The translations under genes and the position numbers were made by a program. Source: Candidatus Woesearchaeota archaeon (lineage in GTDB: Archaea; Nanobdellota; Nanobdellia; Woesearchaeales; UBA525). Taken from it: DNA of 38,445 nucleotides. The notes beneath the pieces are model-generated. The model was not told the origin of the DNA. It was given only the letters and a program-made list of their open reading frames with translations, and did no database searches. Shown piece by piece: positions 4,051 through 33,067 of this stretch. Numbering within the stretch: position 1 is the first letter of the stretch; every line of letters begins with the position of its first letter. The DNA is taken from the NCBI GenBank assembly GCA_018221245.1, contig JAAOYH010000030.1, positions 1 through 38,445 of the forward strand, read 5' to 3'.

Positions 4051-6090
4051 TTATTCCATCGGTGTCTCGGACCATAATGTCCATTCGGGACTTGGTGCGT
4101 ATCCACCCACTACATAGTTTGTAGGCATGGTGTGTCCCATGTATGCGTTTTGGATGCCACCGAATGTTGGTGCGCCGGCGGAAGTGTTTCCTATTGGGCT
4201 GCCGAATGCGCGCCAGGTCTCTGTAAGTATTCTTCCACGACCGAACCCTTCCTCTTCGTGACCCTCTGATAGTATATCTCCTTTGAACCCTGCTGCTTTC
4301 ATGTCTTTGACCATACCTACCATATCGAATATCCCTTGTCCTACAGGTAGGTGCGCGTGCTCTCCTGTCATGCTGTCTACTACTTGGATTCCTCCTAACA
4401 CGCCTTCCTTGACCATATTATTTGCCTGAGCTTTCATCCATTTGTTGAAGCGGCTTAGCTTGTCCGCGTCTGTCTCTCCTTTCTTCTCAGCGAAGTGACT
4501 GTACCAATTACTAAGGTGGGTGGTGTCCATCATTCCCTTGATGTGCTGCTTTGCAACATCCTTTGCATGAGCTTGGTCCATTCCTTTCTCCATCAACTTC
4601 TGTTTCATGTGATCTCTTGCGCCTTTTATCATCTCTATGAATTCATCAGGGTGGCTTCCATATGATGCGCCCGCAAATCCGATCTCAGGGCCAACGTATA
4701 CGGGATTGCCCAGCTTCCGTTCTTTTGTGATTTTGTACGCGTGCATTCCTGCTTCCGCATAACTGTCGAACGTCTTGTTTTTGGCGTAGGATGAAGGTGT
4801 TCTGATATTCTCCCATACTTGCTCGAGCTCCTTGAAGTTCTGTTGGTACGAGAGTGCCTGTTCTTGGAGGCCGTGTAGTTGGTTCTGGTCTCTTGTGAGC
4901 ATATCTTGGACCACTTTACTGGGTTTTTCCTTGAGCAACTGTCTCTTCATCGAGTCGGGTATGCCCCTTCCTCTGAGCAAGTTGTGCTCAATCCATTCTT
5001 CTTTTTCCTTCTGTCCCATTTTGTCTTCTATATCTTCTGCGAAATGCTTCATCTGGGAAAGGTTTCTAAGACCTTCATATGCATAATCCAAATCTTTGTT
5101 CCAGTGGAGTGCTTGTCCGTGTGCGAGTGCCATTTGGCTCAGGAGTTTTTGTCTGAACGCGAACTCCTCAGGCTTGACATCTTTGTTGTTTGCTTTGTTG
5201 TACTTCTCAGTCTCTTCTCTCACTCTTTTCCAATCCCATTTTTCTGTAACGAACTCTTTTGTGTCTGGGTTCATCACAGGTAGGAGTTTAGAGACTCCTT
5301 CTGGAGTGAACTGATCTACCTTGTTGCCTTCTATGTCCACAAAATCATCAGCTTTCAAGGTATTGCCTTTTCTGTCCTTCTTACCGACAATGTTTTCGTC
5401 TTTGGCAGTTTTGAACTGAACCCTGAAGATATCGTCGTTTGTTCTTATGACTGAACCCTGGATAGCGCGTCCTGTACGGCCGTCTATAAGGAATTTGACA
5501 GTCTCTGCAGTGTCAGGATCATCTATCTCGTTTTGAGAATAGCTGTAGAATAGTTTCTTTCCGTTTTTATCCTTATTCCAGTCAGCGTCTAGAATATCTC
5601 TCTGGAATTCGTTGGCATATATGTCCACGCCTCCTCCGTCAGCGACATCAGCGGCGAACTCTATAGCATTCTTCACTTCCTGAAGATTCTTGGCGCGCTC
5701 CTCTTCTGAGATGCCTCCTTGTTGCGGGTTCCATCCTGTGAGTCCTTGGATTTTTCCAGGGGATAGCTCGACACCTGTAATCTTGACGTCCGATACCATT
5801 GCACGTTCCTTTATTTCTCTCCTAACATCCTTTCCGAAGACGCTTGCGAGTTGACCAGGTCCTGTGCTGCTTTCTCCAGAGATTATCAATTGTATCTTTT
5901 TGGTTCCTATTCTGATGCTCTGCTCGAGATTGCTCAGGATATTTCCTTGTCCTGTATCTATAACTGTGGTGCCTAGTTCACTGATTGGGATTATGGGGGT
6001 CTCTATATCGTTCGTTTCAAGAGCCTCTATGGGTTGTTCGTCCCATTGCCTATCCATTGGCGGCTCGTAGCCGGACATAAACTCTACCAT
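4051..6090 (-). CDS. Large protein with endonuclease-IV/xylose-isomerase-like TIM-barrel motifs
   Basis: VYVGPEIGFAGASYGSHPDEF, MMDTTHLSNWY, HLPVGQG and GDILSEGHEEE occur in the order of Nfo metal-site motifs (LENTAGQG, DTCHAFAAG, HxNIGEG, ILE). Confidence 0.55.
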   Translation of the reverse strand: MVEFMSGYEPPMDRQWDEQPIEALETNDIETPIIPISELGTTVIDTGQGNILSNLEQSIRIGTKKIQLIISGESSTGPGQLASVFGKDVRREIKERAMVSDVKITGVELSPGKIQGLTGWNPQQGGISEEERAKNLQEVKNAIEFAADVADGGGVDIYANEFQRDILDADWNKDKNGKKLFYSYSQNEIDDPDTAETVKFLIDGRTGRAIQGSVIRTNDDIFRVQFKTAKDENIVGKKDRKGNTLKADDFVDIEGNKVDQFTPEGVSKLLPVMNPDTKEFVTEKWDWKRVREETEKYNKANNKDVKPEEFAFRQKLLSQMALAHGQALHWNKDLDYAYEGLRNLSQMKHFAEDIEDKMGQKEKEEWIEHNLLRGRGIPDSMKRQLLKEKPSKVVQDMLTRDQNQLHGLQEQALSYQQNFKELEQVWENIRTPSSYAKNKTFDSYAEAGMHAYKITKERKLGNPVYVGPEIGFAGASYGSHPDEFIEMIKGARDHMKQKLMEKGMDQAHAKDVAKQHIKGMMDTTHLSNWYSHFAEKKGETDADKLSRFNKWMKAQANNMVKEGVLGGIQVVDSMTGEHAHLPVGQGIFDMVGMVKDMKAAGFKGDILSEGHEEEGFGRGRILTETWRAFGSPIGNTSAGAPTFGGIQNAYMGHTMPTNYVVGGYAPSPEWTLWSETPME

Positions 6091-24254: not shown

Positions 24255-25322
24255 GTGCGAGACCCAAGCCATTCATTGAACGGGCTTACGCTTTCTGGAG
24301 CTAAAGAGCTTTCTCTCGAATATAACGTGCCTGTTTTCGATGTATTGCATATGGCTATTAATCTAAGAGGGGTAAAATCAAAAGGGGTTTCAGGACGAGG
24401 AAGGTTTCTTTTTAAACAAGATAGAAGAGAGTATATTATGGCAGTCTCCTTGGGGGAAAACACCCCGTTCAAGCACGAAGAAGGAGTTTTAAGGATTCAA
24501 GACGATGTCATAGGCACAGTTACTGATATTGAGGAAGATACGTGCGATGAAACATACTATAGAAATAATGGCCGTGCCCTCACTCTGAACTCTAACATCA
24601 AGAGTGATTGCAGAGGATGTATGTTCTGTGGCGCTTATGATTCTGTCGAAACTGAAAAGAGCTTGACAACAGAGGAGGGATTGAACAATAAAATTGATGA
24701 ACTTCTAAAAGAAAGTGGTGATGAGGATATGTCTTTTCTTGATTCTATAGGTGTTGTAACGGGATGTTTTCCTTCAGAGGATGATGTCCTGGGTCATTTG
24801 TTGTTGGTGAATGATGTTTTCAAGAATAGGGGGTTTTCTGGGACTGTTTGTTATGTTGGTTCGCAGATCACGAGCGAAGACTGTCTTGTTGAAATGGGTA
24901 AGAATAATATGGCACTTTACTTGACTGTAGAATGCTTTGAGAGAAGATCAAATCTTCTTAGACTGGGGAAAGCAGAACTAAATCTTGATGATGGGAGAGA
25001 TGTACTGAAGAAAGCAAGAAATGCAGGTCTAGAAACCTCTTTTTTGTATATCCTTGGGTTGGATTCCCTGGTCTCTATATCTGAACAGTTTCCAGAATAC
25101 TTAGATGTTATTTCCAGACATCCTATTGTGAACCTGATGCAGAACTATCAACCTATACATGAGACATTAAGGCATCCCACAGCATATTCTATGCATTATT
25201 TCCTTGGGGCGAGGAACCTAATAGAGAATGTGATGGGAAAAACATCTATGAGACCAAGACTGTGGGAGAATTATCGGGCTCCTTGGGCAACAACATATGG
25301 GGGAGATATTCTTGAATCCTAG
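24255..25322 (+). CDS. Radical SAM-like protein
   Basis: SDCRGCMFCG (CxxCxxC) cluster-like motif, (beta/alpha)-type sequence downstream (GVVTGCFPSEDDVLGHL, NMALYLTVECFERRS, GLETSFLYILGLDS); GTG start. Confidence 0.65.
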   Translation: MRDPSHSLNGLTLSGAKELSLEYNVPVFDVLHMAINLRGVKSKGVSGRGRFLFKQDRREYIMAVSLGENTPFKHEEGVLRIQDDVIGTVTDIEEDTCDETYYRNNGRALTLNSNIKSDCRGCMFCGAYDSVETEKSLTTEEGLNNKIDELLKESGDEDMSFLDSIGVVTGCFPSEDDVLGHLLLVNDVFKNRGFSGTVCYVGSQITSEDCLVEMGKNNMALYLTVECFERRSNLLRLGKAELNLDDGRDVLKKARNAGLETSFLYILGLDSLVSISEQFPEYLDVISRHPIVNLMQNYQPIHETLRHPTAYSMHYFLGARNLIENVMGKTSMRPRLWENYRAPWATTYGGDILES

Positions 25323-26427
25323 GAATGTCCTAGACTTACTAAAGAATAGAGGCCACGACTTTGTCACAGGAATACCTTGTGGGGTATTGAGTCCGCTTAT
25401 AGCAGAATTCAAGAGGGATTCGTTGTACGAACACTTAATTGTCCAGAATGAGCCTGAGGCCATAGGGGTTGCAGCTGGAGCTTATCTGGGTGGAAAGCGC
25501 CCTGTATTGTATATGCAAAATTCAGGCTTTCTAAAATCAATAAATGAATATGGTTCCCTGTTGATACCTAATGAGATTCCCATCTTGAACATTGTCAGTT
25601 ATAGGGGATGTCCAGGAGAGAACGCTCCTCAGCATTTTACTACTGGCAGAATCACTAAGAGCGTGTTGGACATCCTAAATATTCCTTGGGCACAGATGGA
25701 AGATGATGTCTGCGTAATTGATTCGGTATTCGCAGAAATGGAAGAAAAGTCAGTCCCTGGTGTAATTCTTATCAAAAGATCTACGTTTGGAGAGTCTCAT
25801 AATCCACAGAACTGTCGTCAACATGTCCCTGAGATACTTGTGAATGAAAGGTTGAACGTTTTGGATATTTTGAGGCGGGAAGAGGCGTTGGATGCAATTC
25901 TTTCCGCAACAACAGAGATGGACGCAATATTGTCTGGCACCGGGTTGATGAGCAGATCTATCTATGAACGAAATGATGGCCCAAACAAATTCTATACTGC
26001 TGGTGCATTCGGCCTGGTATCTTCAATAGGTCTTGGGTTTTCGTTGGCAAAGCCAGATACTGGAACTGTTGTTATAGATGGGGATGCGAGCCTTCTTTCA
26101 AATTTAGGTTCTTTGATAAGTACAGGCAGGGCACAACCGAGGAATCTCGTACATGTTGTTGTTGATAATCATGCGTACGGTTCATGCCAGGAGGAACCTA
26201 GCTGTTCAGATATCGTAAAATTTCCTCAAATTGCCGCACATCACGGGTTTAGAAGAGTATTTTCAGTGAATAACCCAAGAGACATCTCCGAGGCGGTACG
26301 AGAATCCCTTGCAGGGGGAGGTCCTGCGTTAATTCATATCCCTATTCAGTTAGGAGGACGAAGAGATTTCAAACGTCCGATGAACTTACCTTATATCTCC
26401 AGGAGGTTCAAAAAAACATTTTCATGA
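25297..26427 (+). CDS. TPP-dependent decarboxylase resembling phosphonopyruvate/sulfopyruvate decarboxylase
   Basis: GHDFVTGIPCGVLSPLI, NEPEAIGVAAGAYLGGKRPVLYMQNSGF, SYRGCPGENAPQH, TPP motif DGDASLLSNLGSLISTG...DNHAYGS. Confidence 0.85.
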   Translation: MGEIFLNPRNVLDLLKNRGHDFVTGIPCGVLSPLIAEFKRDSLYEHLIVQNEPEAIGVAAGAYLGGKRPVLYMQNSGFLKSINEYGSLLIPNEIPILNIVSYRGCPGENAPQHFTTGRITKSVLDILNIPWAQMEDDVCVIDSVFAEMEEKSVPGVILIKRSTFGESHNPQNCRQHVPEILVNERLNVLDILRREEALDAILSATTEMDAILSGTGLMSRSIYERNDGPNKFYTAGAFGLVSSIGLGFSLAKPDTGTVVIDGDASLLSNLGSLISTGRAQPRNLVHVVVDNHAYGSCQEEPSCSDIVKFPQIAAHHGFRRVFSVNNPRDISEAVRESLAGGGPALIHIPIQLGGRRDFKRPMNLPYISRRFKKTFS

Positions 26428-26945
26428 GACTTGAAGAACTGTTCCGTAGTATAAGAGATGTACCGTACTCTCAAAATTTTATTGAGGGAACAGAGGGGTT
26501 ATCATGCAAGGATAAACATACAAATATGGTTGATGGTCTATATAAGTTAGGAATATCTTCAAGATTTGTGACTACCCGTTTTGCGTGGCACGAGCTGTCC
26601 AAGAGAGGGGTGCAATATCCGCCTCTCATGAGTGAACTTGCTTATGGGGCGGGAGAATCGTTCCATATGGCGTGCGAGGCTTATTTGGACGATGGGTGGA
26701 CTCTTTTAGATGCTACATGGGATAAACATCTAGCGGATGTTGGGTTTCCAGTAAATGAAGATCCTCGTAATTGCGTACATGCAGTTTTCCCCAGAGATAT
26801 TATTATTCACAAAGATTTGGATATTAGAGATAATTTGCTGGATAAATTCAGAGCGAACTATTCGAATCTTCAATGGGAGCGCAAACGCATCTTCTACAAA
26901 GAGTTAGATTCTTGGATGAATAAAATTAGAAATCGACATCAATAA
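26424..26945 (+). CDS. Transglutaminase-like protein
   Basis: GLSCKDKH...SFHMACEAYLDDGWTLLDATWD, consistent with a Cys/His/Asp triad; ATGA overlap with upstream gene. Confidence 0.65.
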   Translation: MRLEELFRSIRDVPYSQNFIEGTEGLSCKDKHTNMVDGLYKLGISSRFVTTRFAWHELSKRGVQYPPLMSELAYGAGESFHMACEAYLDDGWTLLDATWDKHLADVGFPVNEDPRNCVHAVFPRDIIIHKDLDIRDNLLDKFRANYSNLQWERKRIFYKELDSWMNKIRNRHQ

Positions 26946-26969
26946 ATATGTATCTATGCCTGCAACATC

Positions 26970-27599
26970 ATGGGCGGGTGGGATGATATTTACAAAAAGG
27001 ATCCTAAAGACTATTCTTATTATGATTTGGGCAAACCACACAAAGACTTGCCAAAGATAGTGCGTCGTTTCAAAGGCGTGAAAAATGTTCTGGATATTGG
27101 TTGTGGATCTGGTAGGAACTTTTTCTACCTCACCAAACATTTTCAAGTTGAAGGTATAGATATTGCTAAAGAGGGGGTTCGACAGATAAAGAAGATTCTG
27201 CCTGAATCAAGAGTTAAGGTGGGAGATATATACAACAAATTACCTTACAAAACTGGTGTGTTCGATGCTATTGTGGGCATCCAAGTTCTACAGCATTCCA
27301 CGGAACCGAAGATTAAGAAAGCAATTTCCGAAATTTTCAGAATTCTGAAGCCAGGAGGGTGGTTGTTCATTACAGTTGGTGGAAGAATCTCTAAAGGAGA
27401 GGTGAGATACTGCCTTGTTAAAACTGCTAAAAAGATGGCGCCGAACACGTATGTCCCTACAAAAGGAAGCGAGAAAGGCCTTACTCATTTTATCTACAGC
27501 AAGAAGCGCCTTCTTGATCACTTCGAGTTGTTCGATATTATCGAAACGTGGAAGGACGACAAGGACTATTATTGCCTTCTAGCAAGAAAGCCAACATAA
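26970..27599 (+). CDS. Class I SAM-dependent methyltransferase
   Basis: NVLDIGCGSGRNFFYLTKHFQVEGIDIAKEGV; FDAIVGIQVLQH; LKPGGWLFITV. Confidence 0.88.
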   Translation: MGGWDDIYKKDPKDYSYYDLGKPHKDLPKIVRRFKGVKNVLDIGCGSGRNFFYLTKHFQVEGIDIAKEGVRQIKKILPESRVKVGDIYNKLPYKTGVFDAIVGIQVLQHSTEPKIKKAISEIFRILKPGGWLFITVGGRISKGEVRYCLVKTAKKMAPNTYVPTKGSEKGLTHFIYSKKRLLDHFELFDIIETWKDDKDYYCLLARKPT

Positions 27600-27682
27600 T
27601 GGAATTTTCTCTTTATTATGGAGAGTTTCCAGTATTGTAATATCTACATAATATTTTTAAAGGAATTACTCTCCCGGAAGCC

Positions 27683-27757
27683 GGGTCCGTAGCTCAGCCT
27701 GGTCAGAGCAATCGGCTCTTAACCGATCGGCCGCGGGTTCGAATCCCGTCGGACCCA
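27683..27757 (+). tRNA. tRNA-Lys (anticodon CTT)
   Basis: GGGTCCG/CGGACCC acceptor, ATCGG-CTCTTAA-CCGAT anticodon arm, GCGGG-TTCGAAT-CCCGT T-arm. Confidence 0.95.
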
Positions 27758-27802
27758 TAGTGCTCAGAAATGTAATTTCTGGCACGTGAGCTCACGCTCA
27801 AC

Positions 27803-27877
27803 GCTCCTGTAGTGTAGTCCGGTCAATCATTTCGCCCTCTCGAGGCGAAGACCCGGGTTCGAATCCCGGCGGGAGCA
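27803..27877 (+). tRNA. tRNA-Glu (anticodon CTC)
   Basis: GCTCCTG/CGGGAGC acceptor, TCGCC-CTCTCGA-GGCGA anticodon arm, CCGGG-TTCGAAT-CCCGG T-arm. Confidence 0.95.
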
Positions 27878-27963
27878 GTTCTCGACGGTAAAATAGAGGT
27901 TGTTGGAGGGCATCGAACCTTTTCGGCACAAGTCTTTATATATCAAATAAGGGGTGTTTGATT

Positions 27964-28350
27964 ATGAAAACCATACTTGTTGATGCAATAAACACTTTTG
28001 TAATCAAAGAAGAGGGGGTATTTGAAGAAATGTATGGGCTCTTGGAATCTTATCCAAACCCTAAGATTATCTTGACTGGCGCAAATGATGAGCAGATGAA
28101 GAAATTCGGTCTGGATAAGATGCCTTATACTGTATTCACTCTGAAGCACAATCCAGAGAAGACGGAAACTGAATATTTCACTAGAATGCTTCAACACTTC
28201 AATCTTGAAGCGGGAGACGTGATATATTTCGAGCATAACCCTGCTGCTGCTGAGGTTGCTAGATCTCTAGGAATAGAAACATTAGATTATGACAAAGATA
28301 AGAAGGATTTGATCTCTTTGAAGTCGTTCATTGATTCATTTGCCCTGTAA
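27964..28350 (+). CDS. Small HAD-like hypothetical protein
   Basis: ILVDAINTFVI, KIILTGANDEQMKKFGL, DVIYFEHNPAAAEVARSLGIETLDYD; own TATA TTTATATATC at 27935. Confidence 0.6.
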   Translation: MKTILVDAINTFVIKEEGVFEEMYGLLESYPNPKIILTGANDEQMKKFGLDKMPYTVFTLKHNPEKTETEYFTRMLQHFNLEAGDVIYFEHNPAAAEVARSLGIETLDYDKDKKDLISLKSFIDSFAL

Positions 28351-28352
28351 TC

Positions 28353-28382
28353 GGAATTTTCTCTTCACGCCCGGCGGGAGCA
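28353..28382 (+). repeat. 30-bp composite repeat, copy 1, ending in the tRNA-Glu 3' end
   Basis: GGAATTTTCTCTTCACGCCCGGCGGGAGCA; last 13 nt identical to tRNA-Glu 27865-27877, with matching GTTCT(G/C)GACG downstream. Confidence 0.9.
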
Positions 28383-28426
28383 GTTCTGGACGCTGTTGCC
28401 ATAAATAACCAAACATATATGAACCT

Positions 28427-29155
28427 GTGTTGGAGGCAAATGGTGTGGATATCGAGGCAGTAAAAAGGGATGTGGAGTACACCAAGACAAGATTCGAGAG
28501 AATGCTCCACAATCTCACTCTTCTTCATCAGCAGAAAATTATCATAGTGCAAGATATCAATAAATCCAATAATATACAAGAAAAGACCAATCTCATTAAA
28601 CGTCTTCATGATAGAATCGCAAGGGAGGAAAAATATGTCCGTCTACTGGGTAAAGGGCTAGCAAACCTTCTTAGTGATATAAAAAGTGCTTTCGACGAAT
28701 GCAGAAATATCCATAGGGCCTCTGATAAAGAAAGCCTTCTCCTTATAGTTAGTTTAGAGGGTCTATTGAAAAAGGAAGAAAAGGTGATTCTTTTCCTCCA
28801 AAATACGTTTGGTCAGATGGAAAAAAGGATTCAACGGGAAAAGAAATATGTCCATAGAGGGATCGGAGAATTTAACTCTGGTGATTATCAAAAGTTCTTT
28901 GAAGAGTTCGAGAAAGAGATCAAACTGGAAGCAGGGACATTCAAGATAAAAGATGAAATAACAAGAATTGTAGACAAAGGAGAGGAGGTCATACTGATTA
29001 GCAAGGTTGTGTCTAAGAAAGTAGATCGTGTGGTGGGCTTCGCGATAGCAGGAACAACAATCATCCTTGCCGGGTTAGCCCCTGAGCTACTTGGGTTCTT
29101 CGGGTCATTTCTTTTTACTATTGGTGGAATAACTATAGGGACCCGCGGCATTTGA
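28427..29155 (+). CDS. Coiled-coil protein with C-terminal TM segment(s)
   Basis: Long charged helical region and C-terminal VVGFAIAGTTIILAGLAPELLGFFGSFLFTIGGITIG; GTG start. Confidence 0.65.
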   Translation: MLEANGVDIEAVKRDVEYTKTRFERMLHNLTLLHQQKIIIVQDINKSNNIQEKTNLIKRLHDRIAREEKYVRLLGKGLANLLSDIKSAFDECRNIHRASDKESLLLIVSLEGLLKKEEKVILFLQNTFGQMEKRIQREKKYVHRGIGEFNSGDYQKFFEEFEKEIKLEAGTFKIKDEITRIVDKGEEVILISKVVSKKVDRVVGFAIAGTTIILAGLAPELLGFFGSFLFTIGGITIGTRGI

Positions 29156-29204
29156 ATTTTATTTCCAAGGCCCGGATAAATAATGTGGGGATTGCCCCTT
29201 TCCT

Positions 29205-29234
29205 GGAATTTTCTCCTCACGCCCGGCGGGAGCA
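29205..29234 (+). repeat. 30-bp composite repeat, copy 2
   Basis: GGAATTTTCTCCTCACGCCCGGCGGGAGCA, 29/30 identical to copy 1. Confidence 0.9.
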
Positions 29235-29235
29235 T

Positions 29236-29556
29236 CTACTCAGCGATAATGTTGTAGATATTCTCTTCCTTTTCTTCATCGCCGAGCTGCAGGATATAGG
29301 CGACCTCGTACTGTCCTGGCTCTAGAGCTTTCAGCGTGAAGATCTCTGGCCTCCTTCCACCTATGAGTGGGGTCCCGTCTTCTCCTGTAGGTAGTTCGCC
29401 CTTGACGCCGTCAAGAACATCAATTCCTTTGGGTGTGTGGAGATATCCGTGCAGGTGTGCAGCGCCCTTCTCAGTGATTTCAAATACCTCGCCGACCTTG
29501 ACTTCCAGTGTCTTTTCCGATAGTATTTCTCTTTCCATCATGGTTTTCCAGAACAC
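29236..29556 (-). CDS. Possible chagasin-like (I42) peptidase-inhibitor fold protein
   Basis: LEVKVGEVFEITEKGAAHLHGYL...GGRRPEIFTLKALEPGQYEVAYIL resembles I42 strand pattern; weak. Confidence 0.45.
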   Translation of the reverse strand: MFWKTMMEREILSEKTLEVKVGEVFEITEKGAAHLHGYLHTPKGIDVLDGVKGELPTGEDGTPLIGGRRPEIFTLKALEPGQYEVAYILQLGDEEKEENIYNIIAE

Positions 29557-29799
29557 GCAAATAAGTATTTATCGCTCAGCTTTTGGTAGGGGGAGCATCT
29601 CCCTATCATTTTGGCGATAGAACCTGTATTTTAGAACGCCGCTCTTGTCATGAACGACGGCGCATTATATTTAAATCTTATTAATGGAGGATTCTCATGC
29701 AGAATAATCATTTGAAAATGAATGGGTTGAAATTAGTCTTAGACTTGTAGTAGTTTTCAAGTAACAACTATTATATATCTTCATCATTAGGGGCGTTGC

Positions 29800-31701
29800 A
29801 TGGTAACAAAACACATTCTCACATTTGCGTTGTGCTTTTTGCTGGTTTTAGCAGCGTGCAATGACAGTAACGTAGCTGGTGAAGCAAAAGGGGGATCAAA
29901 AGGACCTCCTGGTGTAGACATTGCTCCCCCCTCGATAGAGTATGGGGAGTTTCAAATGAAACAGCACATTCGTGAAATGGTGTCTGGGACTCTAACTGCA
30001 AATGAGTTGCCTGGACTTGCGGATTATATCATAGCAGAAAAAAAATCATCCACAACATTCGGCCAGAGCCTTACTATTGGAGATGGTCTCCAACTCATTG
30101 CAGTGAACTATGTGGAGAATGAGGATGATACACTCGGAGATTTTTTTGTCGTTGATACAGGTTTGCCTTTCTTCTCTTGGGAAGGGACGTTTTCTCAGGC
30201 CTTGGCTGAGCCATATGAAGGCAAGTATATCCCGATTCTTGGCAAGGCATATAAGATATTTAGAGCCACATCTTTTGGGGAGGATGGTCTTTCTTTGGAA
30301 CTTATCCCTGCATCATCATTTGAGGGAAGCATGAAAGAAGGAGAAACAGACACATTTATTGTTGATGGATTAACAATGGAAGTAACGTTGGTGTTTGTTG
30401 AAACAAGCGGCACACCATACGCGAAATTTTCTGTCGACGGTGTTTTGACTGACAATATAGGGGTTGGAGATACAGATTTCTTATTGAATAGTCTCCAACT
30501 AGGAGTGTCTGACATCCAAGCGAAACGTAAGAGCAGCAGTGTAGATTTCTTTATATCAGGTCCAGGCGTAAAATTCACAGACACGAATACGGCTTCTAGT
30601 ACAAACGGAGGGAGCGTGGAAATTGGAGCAGAGAATATAGAAGATGCAACTGTGGAGCTGATAGTGGGTGCTTCTGGCATCACAGGCATTAAGTATGATC
30701 TCCAAGCAGATGCGAACGTTGGTTCCATACTCTATGTTGCTCCAGGACAGGGTGTCAAGGATTTTTTGGATGAGCCTGAAGGACTATTTGGGTTGGATGT
30801 TGTGTTTGAAAGTGTTGATAGTGTTGCATCCTCGAAGATTGAATTCGGAGCTTATGGGGATAATGAGTATGGACTCAAGGTGACAAACTCAAGAGGAAAG
30901 ATGTACTCAGCACCATTAGTGATAGCGCTCAATGAAACGATTAAATGGGGTGACGCAGACGATGACTTTTGGTTCACTGAGCCGTCATTTACATCAGGTC
31001 TCACGATTGATCTCTCAGGGAGTGATTTTTGGATATCAGACGATGATTACTTCGTTGTGAGTCGTGATGATGTAGGGCCCTCTGCAATCCTCCAATACGA
31101 TGACATTGACACAAGTGAACGTGTTATTTACTTCAACGATGCGGCAACAGGCGAAACAAAAAGCGTTAGCTATATTCTTGATGCAAACGACCCGGACATC
31201 CTGGGCTATACAAGGAACTTAGTCGTTGAAGGAAACACGTACGCGGTATGGGTTGCCAGTTCACAAGGGCATCCTTTGGCGATTGATCTAAATGGAGATG
31301 CTATGCTTTCTGGAGCAAATGTCGGCTTCACAGTGAACGGAGGAGGTGTTCTCAACTTTGGAGGATACCAGGCTGGAGATTCATTTGTTTACGGTGGATT
31401 GAACATGAGCCTCGCTACGAATTTTGAGTCAGGAACTGAAGTGTTGAATTGGCAGATATGGGCTGATTTTTTTGAGGTACGCTTAGGACACATAATGTAC
31501 TCAGGACCTTTCGCTGCTGACGCGGAGTCTAATAGGTTCCGCATGATTAACGACGACATGGATGACAACTGGGACAGGGGTAGAACCGATTATGGTGCTC
31601 TTGTAGAATACTACAATCCCCGTACTGCTACACCTGAAGAGCTTTTCATCACTTACCCTGAAAACAGCGTTGAAACCAACATTCTCGTGAAGCTTGGCTG
31701 A
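29800..31701 (+). CDS. Large secreted lipoprotein, S-layer-like
   Basis: Signal peptide with lipobox LVLAAC; long Asp/Gly/Ser-rich beta-strand sequence; AKFSVDGVLTDNIGVGDT resembles archaeal S-layer-like proteins. Confidence 0.65.
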   Translation: MVTKHILTFALCFLLVLAACNDSNVAGEAKGGSKGPPGVDIAPPSIEYGEFQMKQHIREMVSGTLTANELPGLADYIIAEKKSSTTFGQSLTIGDGLQLIAVNYVENEDDTLGDFFVVDTGLPFFSWEGTFSQALAEPYEGKYIPILGKAYKIFRATSFGEDGLSLELIPASSFEGSMKEGETDTFIVDGLTMEVTLVFVETSGTPYAKFSVDGVLTDNIGVGDTDFLLNSLQLGVSDIQAKRKSSSVDFFISGPGVKFTDTNTASSTNGGSVEIGAENIEDATVELIVGASGITGIKYDLQADANVGSILYVAPGQGVKDFLDEPEGLFGLDVVFESVDSVASSKIEFGAYGDNEYGLKVTNSRGKMYSAPLVIALNETIKWGDADDDFWFTEPSFTSGLTIDLSGSDFWISDDDYFVVSRDDVGPSAILQYDDIDTSERVIYFNDAATGETKSVSYILDANDPDILGYTRNLVVEGNTYAVWVASSQGHPLAIDLNGDAMLSGANVGFTVNGGGVLNFGGYQAGDSFVYGGLNMSLATNFESGTEVLNWQIWADFFEVRLGHIMYSGPFAADAESNRFRMINDDMDDNWDRGRTDYGALVEYYNPRTATPEELFITYPENSVETNILVKLG

Positions 31702-31732
31702 TTTTTTTTTTTTTTATTTTTTTTTTTATTTT
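31702..31732 (+). terminator. Poly(T) tract, likely archaeal transcription terminator
   Basis: T14-A-T11-A-T4 directly after the stop codon of the lipoprotein gene. Confidence 0.8.
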
Positions 31733-31798
31733 GTGTGTGGGCATAACAATCTGTTTTATAAATGAAAGTCAGTTCTGCTTTTTAAAAGAGTGATTCTC

Positions 31799-33067
31799 AT
31801 GCAGAATGTCTTTGAAAACATGTCGGAGCCCTTGAAGAGGGCCATAGATATGCAGGGCTATAAGGAGCCCACAGCTATTCAGGAACAGGCAATCCCTAAA
31901 GTTTTAGTGGGAAAAGATGTACTGGGCATTGCTCAGACAGGGACTGGAAAAACAGCAGCCTTTGTCCTGCCTATGCTACAAAGAATGATTCTTGACCCTA
32001 GACGGGGAATCCGATCGTTAATCCTCTGTCCGACAAGAGAGTTGGCAATGCAGGTAGCGGAAGAGATAAAGATATTCGCCAAGAATACAAGAATAAAGCA
32101 CGTCGCAGTATATGGTGGTGTAAAACAAGGCCCTCAAGTCACTGCACTTAAGCAGGGAGTAGACATTCTCGTAGCAACGCCAGGAAGATTAATGGATCTC
32201 CACCAGCAGGGCCATGTCAACCTTGGAAAGGTCGAATTCTTCGTCCTGGATGAGGCTGATAGAATGCTTGACATGGGTTTCATTCCCGACATAAAGAAAA
32301 TCTCTAATCTTATCCCTAAAAATCGACAGACTCTTTACTTTTCAGCGACTATGTCTAACATGGTATCCAAACTAGCTAACTCGTTATTGAAAGATCCTGT
32401 CAGGGTTGAAGTGACTCCACAGGCAACTCCTGTTGAGAAGATTGAGCAAAGAGTCCTGTTTGTCGACCACGCAGACAAGTTTGATCTGTTGCTTTATCTT
32501 CTAGAACACGATTATTTGGAGAAAGTTCTCATCTTTAACAAAACAAAGCGCGGAGCAGACAAGATTTGCAGGAAACTAAAGCAAAAAAACGTTTCTGCCC
32601 AACAGATTCACGGGGACAGGACGCAAAATCAGAGGACTCAGGCATTGAAGGCCTTTTCTTCAGGTAAAGTACGTTGTCTTGTAGCTACAGACGTCGCGGC
32701 TAGAGGCATTGACATTGATGATATTAGCCACGTGATAAATTTCGATCTTCCACGAGAGGCCGAGAACTACGTTCACAGGATTGGTCGTACCGCGAGAGCT
32801 GGGGCTGAAGGAACTGCTTATTCATTCTGTACTGCGGACGACAAACCTCTGTTACTAGCCATTCATAAGGTGCTGAAGAAAGAGTTAATCACTCTAGAGC
32901 ACAAGTTCCACTCAGAAAAAGCCTCAAAAAGCACAGTAAAGAGTGAAAAAAAGGAATCTAAACGTTTCTCTAAGAACAGAAGGAGTGGCCCTAGAGGCAA
33001 AGGTGCCTCAAAGAGAAAACCTAAGGGTGGTTTCCACAAGTTCAAGCGTCGCGGCAGAAAACGATAA
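31799..33067 (+). CDS. DEAD-box RNA helicase with basic C-terminal tail
   Basis: AQTGTGKTAAF, DEAD, SAT, VHRIGRTARAG; Lys/Arg-rich tail. Confidence 0.96.
   Translation: MQNVFENMSEPLKRAIDMQGYKEPTAIQEQAIPKVLVGKDVLGIAQTGTGKTAAFVLPMLQRMILDPRRGIRSLILCPTRELAMQVAEEIKIFAKNTRIKHVAVYGGVKQGPQVTALKQGVDILVATPGRLMDLHQQGHVNLGKVEFFVLDEADRMLDMGFIPDIKKISNLIPKNRQTLYFSATMSNMVSKLANSLLKDPVRVEVTPQATPVEKIEQRVLFVDHADKFDLLLYLLEHDYLEKVLIFNKTKRGADKICRKLKQKNVSAQQIHGDRTQNQRTQALKAFSSGKVRCLVATDVAARGIDIDDISHVINFDLPREAENYVHRIGRTARAGAEGTAYSFCTADDKPLLLAIHKVLKKELITLEHKFHSEKASKSTVKSEKKESKRFSKNRRSGPRGKGASKRKPKGGFHKFKRRGRKR

Follow-up and report, generated by a model that had tools for sequence, protein, structure and literature searches.

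Single-gene modules without an integrase behind tRNA-Glu in a Woesearchaeota genome: candidate non-autonomous integrative cassettes

We identified two tandem modules of less than one kilobase downstream of an intact tRNA-Glu gene, each holding one gene and each closed by an exact copy of the last 13 nucleotides of the tRNA. We propose, with a probability of roughly 0.6, that they are non-autonomous integrative cassettes, inserted serially at the 3' end of tRNA-Glu by site-specific recombination with an enzyme acting in trans. The array lies in a window of 38,445 nucleotides (the whole stretch of DNA that was analysed). The host belongs to the Woesearchaeota (DPANN), and the relatives of the ribosomal protein L1 of the window are mostly Candidatus Woesearchaeota. 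The genome comprises 843,861 bases in 94 contigs and is 74% complete. A tandem of tRNA-Lys(CTT) and tRNA-Glu(CTC) occupies positions 27683-27877, and the features of the array are as follows.

27601..27613, + strand: third genome-wide copy of the right arm, GGAATTTTCTCTT, without the tail, after the stop codon of a methyltransferase gene and before tRNA-Lys
27803..27877, + strand: intact tRNA-Glu(CTC) (ARAGORN; Rfam RF00005, 60.7 bits)
27865-27877, + strand: first core copy (attL-like), CCCGGCGGGAGCA, the tail of tRNA-Glu
27878..27887, + strand: common left end of module 1, GTTCTCGACG, 9/10 identical to 28383-28392
27964..28350, + strand: cargo gene 1, 128 aa, weakly HAD-like (Pfam HAD_2, E 0.018, below cut-off)
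28353..28369, + strand: right arm of module 1, GGAATTTTCTCTTCACG, 16/17 identical to 29205-29221
28370..28382, + strand: second core copy, CCCGGCGGGAGCA, exact copy of the tRNA-Glu tail
28383..28392, + strand: common left end of module 2, GTTCTGGACG, 9/10 identical to 27878-27887
28427/28442-29155, + strand: cargo gene 2, 237-242 aa, coiled coil and C-terminal hydrophobic stretch, an orphan with no family assigned
29205..29221, + strand: right arm of module 2, GGAATTTTCTCCTCACG, 16/17 identical to 28353-28369
29222..29234, + strand: third core copy (attR-like), CCCGGCGGGAGCA, exact copy of the tRNA-Glu tail
29236..29538, - strand: weakly I42-like gene, 100 aa, beside the third core (Pfam E 0.007, below cut-off)

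The order is therefore tRNA and core, left end, HAD-like gene, right arm and core, left end, coiled-coil gene, right arm and core, and flank. The modules measure 505 bp (HAD-like) and 852 bp (coiled-coil). A previous reading of the DNA from its letters (hereafter the sequence-only reading) had reported the two tail copies and exactly one gene between successive copies, and both observations proved exact. Across the 844 kb of the genome there are three copies of the tail, all in the window; there was no further exact copy in the genome and none with up to two mismatches in the window. Dispersal of the repeat over the genome, which that reading had named as adverse to integration, was thus not observed. 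Three copies of the tail arose in none of 100 shuffled windows.

The modules also share their ends. The first and second core copies have a common right flank of 10 nt (GTTCTSGACG, 9/10 identical), in agreement with the retained downstream flank noted earlier, and the second and third have a common left flank of 17 nt (GGAATTTTCTCYTCACG, with one difference), which had been overlooked. Since these arms are common to both, the HAD-like and coiled-coil modules have the same ends and different cargo. The right-arm sequence GGAATTTTCTC is found only three times in the genome, all inside 1.6 kb of the window. The longest exact repeat between core copies is only 18 nt, which makes repeat-induced misassembly unlikely.

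In the model that we favour, a cassette would consist of one gene between the left end GTTCTSGACG and the right arm, and the 13-nt tRNA tail would be the core of the crossover. Because core and tail are the same sequence, each insertion would leave the tRNA intact and place a copy of the tail at the far end; the newest cassette would presumably be the one adjoining the tRNA. The junction of an excised circle, i.e., of a module closed on itself, would read GGAATTTTCTCYTCACG-CCCGGCGGGAGCA-GTTCTSGACG, and in an empty site the tRNA-Glu tail would be followed directly by TCTACTCAGCG. Neither cassette encodes a recombinase. The enzyme would most likely be a tRNA-targeting tyrosine integrase, provided in trans by larger elements of the genus or order. 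The circular intermediate, the identity of the integrase and present-day mobility are all elements that we infer.

The functions of both cargo proteins are uncertain. The labels "HAD-like" and "I42-like" given by the sequence-only reading correspond to existing Pfam matches, but these fall below the cut-offs (15.6 bits against 23.8 for HAD, 17.1 against 27.2 for I42). Cargo protein 1 has three homologues among 60 relatives, in G036 (67% identity), G009 (60%) and G013 (remote, 29%, partial), and cargo protein 2 has no close homologue among them. In G036:C87, the closest homologue of cargo protein 1 (L031 5476-5850) is encoded some 70 nt after a tRNA-Thr-like gene with an intron (5307-5402) that ARAGORN left unreported, and we saw no tail copy behind it. 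PADLOC matched none of the three window proteins, and a search of viral contigs returned no relative of cargo protein 1 and no copy of the junction. The I42-like gene had also been placed in a third cassette, bracketed by the 10-bp match GGGAGCATCT at 29228 and 29591. An equal match was found in 5 of 400 shuffles and in 4 of 234 real 600-bp stretches (p ~0.015, no better), and this cassette is not established.

Tail copies are not particular to tRNA-Glu. We searched 2.5 kb on either side of each tRNA, in both orientations, for its own 13-nt tail with at most one mismatch, using the reversed core as a control; for this genome, the survey used stretches around tRNAs. Copies were found at 3 of 30 tRNAs in this genome, at 18 of 116 in a set gathered through tRNA-Glu similarity, and at 5 of 24 in 80 loci fetched through ribosomal protein L1, which were not selected for tails. 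Over about 166 tRNAs there were 31 extra copies downstream in direct orientation (after removing the window locus, which was counted twice) and a single inverted copy; upstream copies were absent, and the reversed control gave none. In a phylum-wide sample of 46 tRNAs, three had copies, four in total, and the control had none. The copies follow the tRNA of their own host, e.g., CCCGGCCGGAGCA in G001 versus CCCGGCGGGAGCA in this genome. With a search range of up to 16 kb in this genome, as far as the contigs reached, downstream direct copies were found only at tRNA-Glu (two), tRNA-Met (one) and tRNA-Ser(TGA) (one). The modules at the last two tRNAs are the following.

L247 7697-9102 (G000:C13): Fic-protein module at tRNA-Ser(TGA), 1,322 bp, gene antisense to the tRNA with its stop codon near the tRNA end
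L247 10660-11469 (G000:C13): module at tRNA-Met, 735 bp, encoding a 213-aa protein of no family, gene antisense to the tRNA with its stop codon near the tRNA end

All four tail-closed modules of this genome carry one gene and no integrase. Their cargo is a HAD-like protein of 128 aa, a coiled-coil protein of 237 aa, a protein without family of 213 aa and a Fic protein of 398 aa. Single-gene modules were also found in relatives: a Fic module at tRNA-Glu in G009, one at tRNA-Leu in G014 whose gene is, by inspection, metallo-beta-lactamase-like, and one at tRNA-Asn in G088. Two other modules had two genes each. The size distribution of these modules should not be over-read, because the 2.5-kb search favours small ones. 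Fic proteins do not appear to be dedicated tRNA cassettes, as most of 30 Fic loci had no tRNA within reach; the association is clear in this genome and in G009, whose two proteins are 26% identical. We also looked for an empty site at tRNA-Ser by way of the dCMP deaminase gene next to it, but abandoned this because the surroundings of the deaminase gene are not conserved.

Integrases with matching targets exist in close relatives. Tyrosine recombinases (PF00589) were found in 53 of 61 genomes, and 13 of the 21 such genes examined in contigs, part of which were chosen for holding a tRNA-Glu, had a tRNA about 0.4-1.1 kb upstream on the same strand. In the same genus, G001 has a 4.7-kb element at tRNA-Ser(GCT) (G001:C22, L233 4460-9253) encoding a 436-aa tyrosine integrase (Pfam 1.5e-11, PHROG integrase 6e-23). 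Its att core, TCCGGGCGTGGGCG, is the 14-nt tail of that tRNA and recurs 4.7 kb further on; a 74-bp gene-less tail module follows the element. There are further integrase-bearing elements in G044 (9.9 kb, at tRNA-Glu itself, core of about 12 nt) and in G013 (6.9 kb, at tRNA-Leu, core of about 11 nt). The genus therefore has autonomous elements with att cores the size of a tRNA tail, and in the order tRNA-Glu itself serves as a target. The common ends, the pattern at other tRNAs and the congeneric element together lend good support to site-specific integration, at the 3' ends of tRNAs, of small modules that lack an integrase, as the sequence-only reading had proposed. That reading also recommended a genome search for a tyrosine recombinase, which yielded little: we found no phage-type integrase in this 74%-complete genome, and its only PF00589 protein is a XerA-like protein of 275 aa. 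The integration part of the proposed repeated capture is well supported; since only the XerA-like protein was found, we infer that the integrase came in trans, encoded either in the missing quarter of the genome or by a visiting element.

Comparison with congeneric genomes places the cassettes within a larger variable region. The gene order M3 peptidase, tRNA-Lys, tRNA-Glu, TPR-like gene, ribosomal L1 and L10 is largely recognisable in four of them, the interval from tRNA-Glu to L1 is different in each, and both cargo genes are absent from all four. Fixed synteny of these genes without the repeats, a second pattern named in advance as contrary to integration, was thus not seen in relatives. 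The interval is differently filled, but we found no precise empty site in the four genomes, which are too diverged to show the exact joint. The GC3 of both cargo genes is 40%, against 55-60% in core genes of the window. It is also low, where measured, in the flanking genes of 24255-27599 and 29800-33067, which have no counterpart in the congeneric loci compared; hence the larger variable region. A block of four genes separates the M3 peptidase gene from tRNA-Lys (24255-27600); the congeneric loci used for comparison lack it, and it extends up to the third copy of the right arm, at 27601.

This third copy, which has no core, is left without explanation by the cassette model, and it is the starting point of a different account. 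The tRNA-Lys/tRNA-Glu cluster and its flanks may have been duplicated and both tRNAs then lost by internal deletion, leaving genes between scars; the right end of a module would be 27601-27613 fused to 27865-27887. Indeed, GGAATTTTCTCTT stands upstream of tRNA-Lys at 27601 and before the tail in the modules, in the same order and orientation. By inspection, the copy at 27601 is part of a hairpin, of which the modules have only one half. We nonetheless consider duplication and decay unlikely. It would take several extra steps to place two unrelated genes between scars that share one deletion joint, tail copies at tRNA-Met, at tRNA-Ser and in other genomes lack such arms, and integrase-bearing elements with tail cores exist.

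Each module could instead be what is left of a larger integrase-bearing element after deletions that followed its insertion. Integrase-bearing elements targeted to tRNA genes do decay, and relatives have such elements, of 4.7 to 9.9 kb, at tRNA tails. However, each window module retains its two ends together with exactly one intact gene, all four modules of the genome are one-gene modules, and none contains a fragment of an integrase. Four independent decays to the one-gene state are less likely than an element built in this way, and we regard such an origin as quite improbable.

Most tail copies in relatives are of another kind. They lie only 44-130 nt from the previous tail and enclose no gene (modules at L027 in G001, L078 in G009, L100 in G008, L101 in G005, L090 in G034, and at L105, L106, L113 and L233). 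Many form a hairpin with the tail as its 3' strand and a mimic of the acceptor strand as its 5' strand; it is capped by a small hairpin with GA on both sides, possibly a tandem G-A, k-turn-like motif. The inner part of these short modules is alike between different tRNAs of one genome. In most of 24 short modules, the preceding sequence pairs with the tail more strongly than shuffled sequences do on average (mean z -1.29). Gene-sized modules gave a mean z of -0.06, and the two window modules, which show no such pairing (p 0.18 and 0.93), group with them. The short gene-less copies may have another origin than the gene-sized modules. For the window copies, we rejected a minihelix or RNA-processing role, and likewise a worn 5' acceptor strand, because their ends do not pair with the tail. 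At L102 903-1691 on the reverse strand (G014:C28), two tail modules lie behind tRNA-Leu(CAA): a gene-less one of 60 bp and, after it, one of 729 bp with one gene, whose end hairpin is similar to that of the first. Behind a tRNA-Glu at L061 (G011:C81), there is an exact tandem repeat of 62 bp, each unit of which ends in the tail with the same one-base change. That the tail copies are tRNA-like RNA signals, i.e., 3' processing or terminator elements of the preceding genes, would suit the many short copies of relatives that fold like an acceptor/T stem and pair with the tail, but it is very improbable for the window, whose modules lack the pairing and whose tail copies have no match in Rfam.

At E. 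coli tyrT, the tRNA gene is likewise followed by tandem repeats, each of which includes a copy of the 3' end of the tRNA. The units there are alike, whereas those described here carry unrelated genes. The closest counterparts by anatomy are the tRNA-targeted islands catalogued by Islander, which have a length of 2-200 kb and an integrase; candidates under 2 kb or without integrase were rejected, and one integrase was demanded per member of a tandem array (PMC4383910). The window modules resemble such islands in having an intact tRNA at one end, a 3' fragment in the same orientation downstream at the other and a foreign gene between, and tandem arrays are known among islands too. They differ in their size (modules of 0.5-1.3 kb, well short of the 2-200 kb range), in their single gene and in the lack of an integrase inside. 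Elements of this size would go unseen under rules that discard candidates below 2 kb or without integrase. Integron cassettes, including those of archaeal integrons (PMC9668308), are similar in having one gene per unit, a shared site between units and serial insertion by an anchor. Here, however, the site is a tRNA tail and not attC, and no integron integrase was recognised in the 74%-complete genome. The attC boxes GTTRRRY and RYYYAAC (R', R'') are absent at the cores, and we therefore rejected membership of the integrons. Mobilizable elements that need helpers have been reviewed (PMC11389934); such hitcher or satellite elements are also non-autonomous, with a recombinase in trans as proposed here. 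The present modules are far smaller, with a single cargo gene. No helper was found in the 74%-complete genome; integrase elements with tRNA-tail cores, the type that a helper would act on, occur in G001, G044 and G013.

By anatomy, the modules are tRNA-targeted integrative elements, and they are new in being integrase-free, single-gene, tandem mini-elements in Woesearchaeota. In the library that it covered, our literature search found no paper on tRNA-gene integration in this group. More broadly, Woesearchaeota, and perhaps other DPANN, might possess an integron-like system anchored at tRNA genes. In such a system cassettes would both dock at the tail and end in it, single genes would be inserted in trans by the integrases of elements that are resident or passing through, several tRNAs of one small genome would serve as cassette ports, and the short gene-less hairpins would be empty or worn sites. 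We put this forward tentatively, as a possibility that is somewhat doubtful at present. A cheap test is to scan downstream of every tRNA gene for its tail. If single-gene integration is true, one-gene accessory loci (Fic, HAD-like and orphan proteins) would be tied to a defined site and class of enzyme, and tRNA tails would offer the reduced genomes of DPANN archaea a simple route to gain genes singly.
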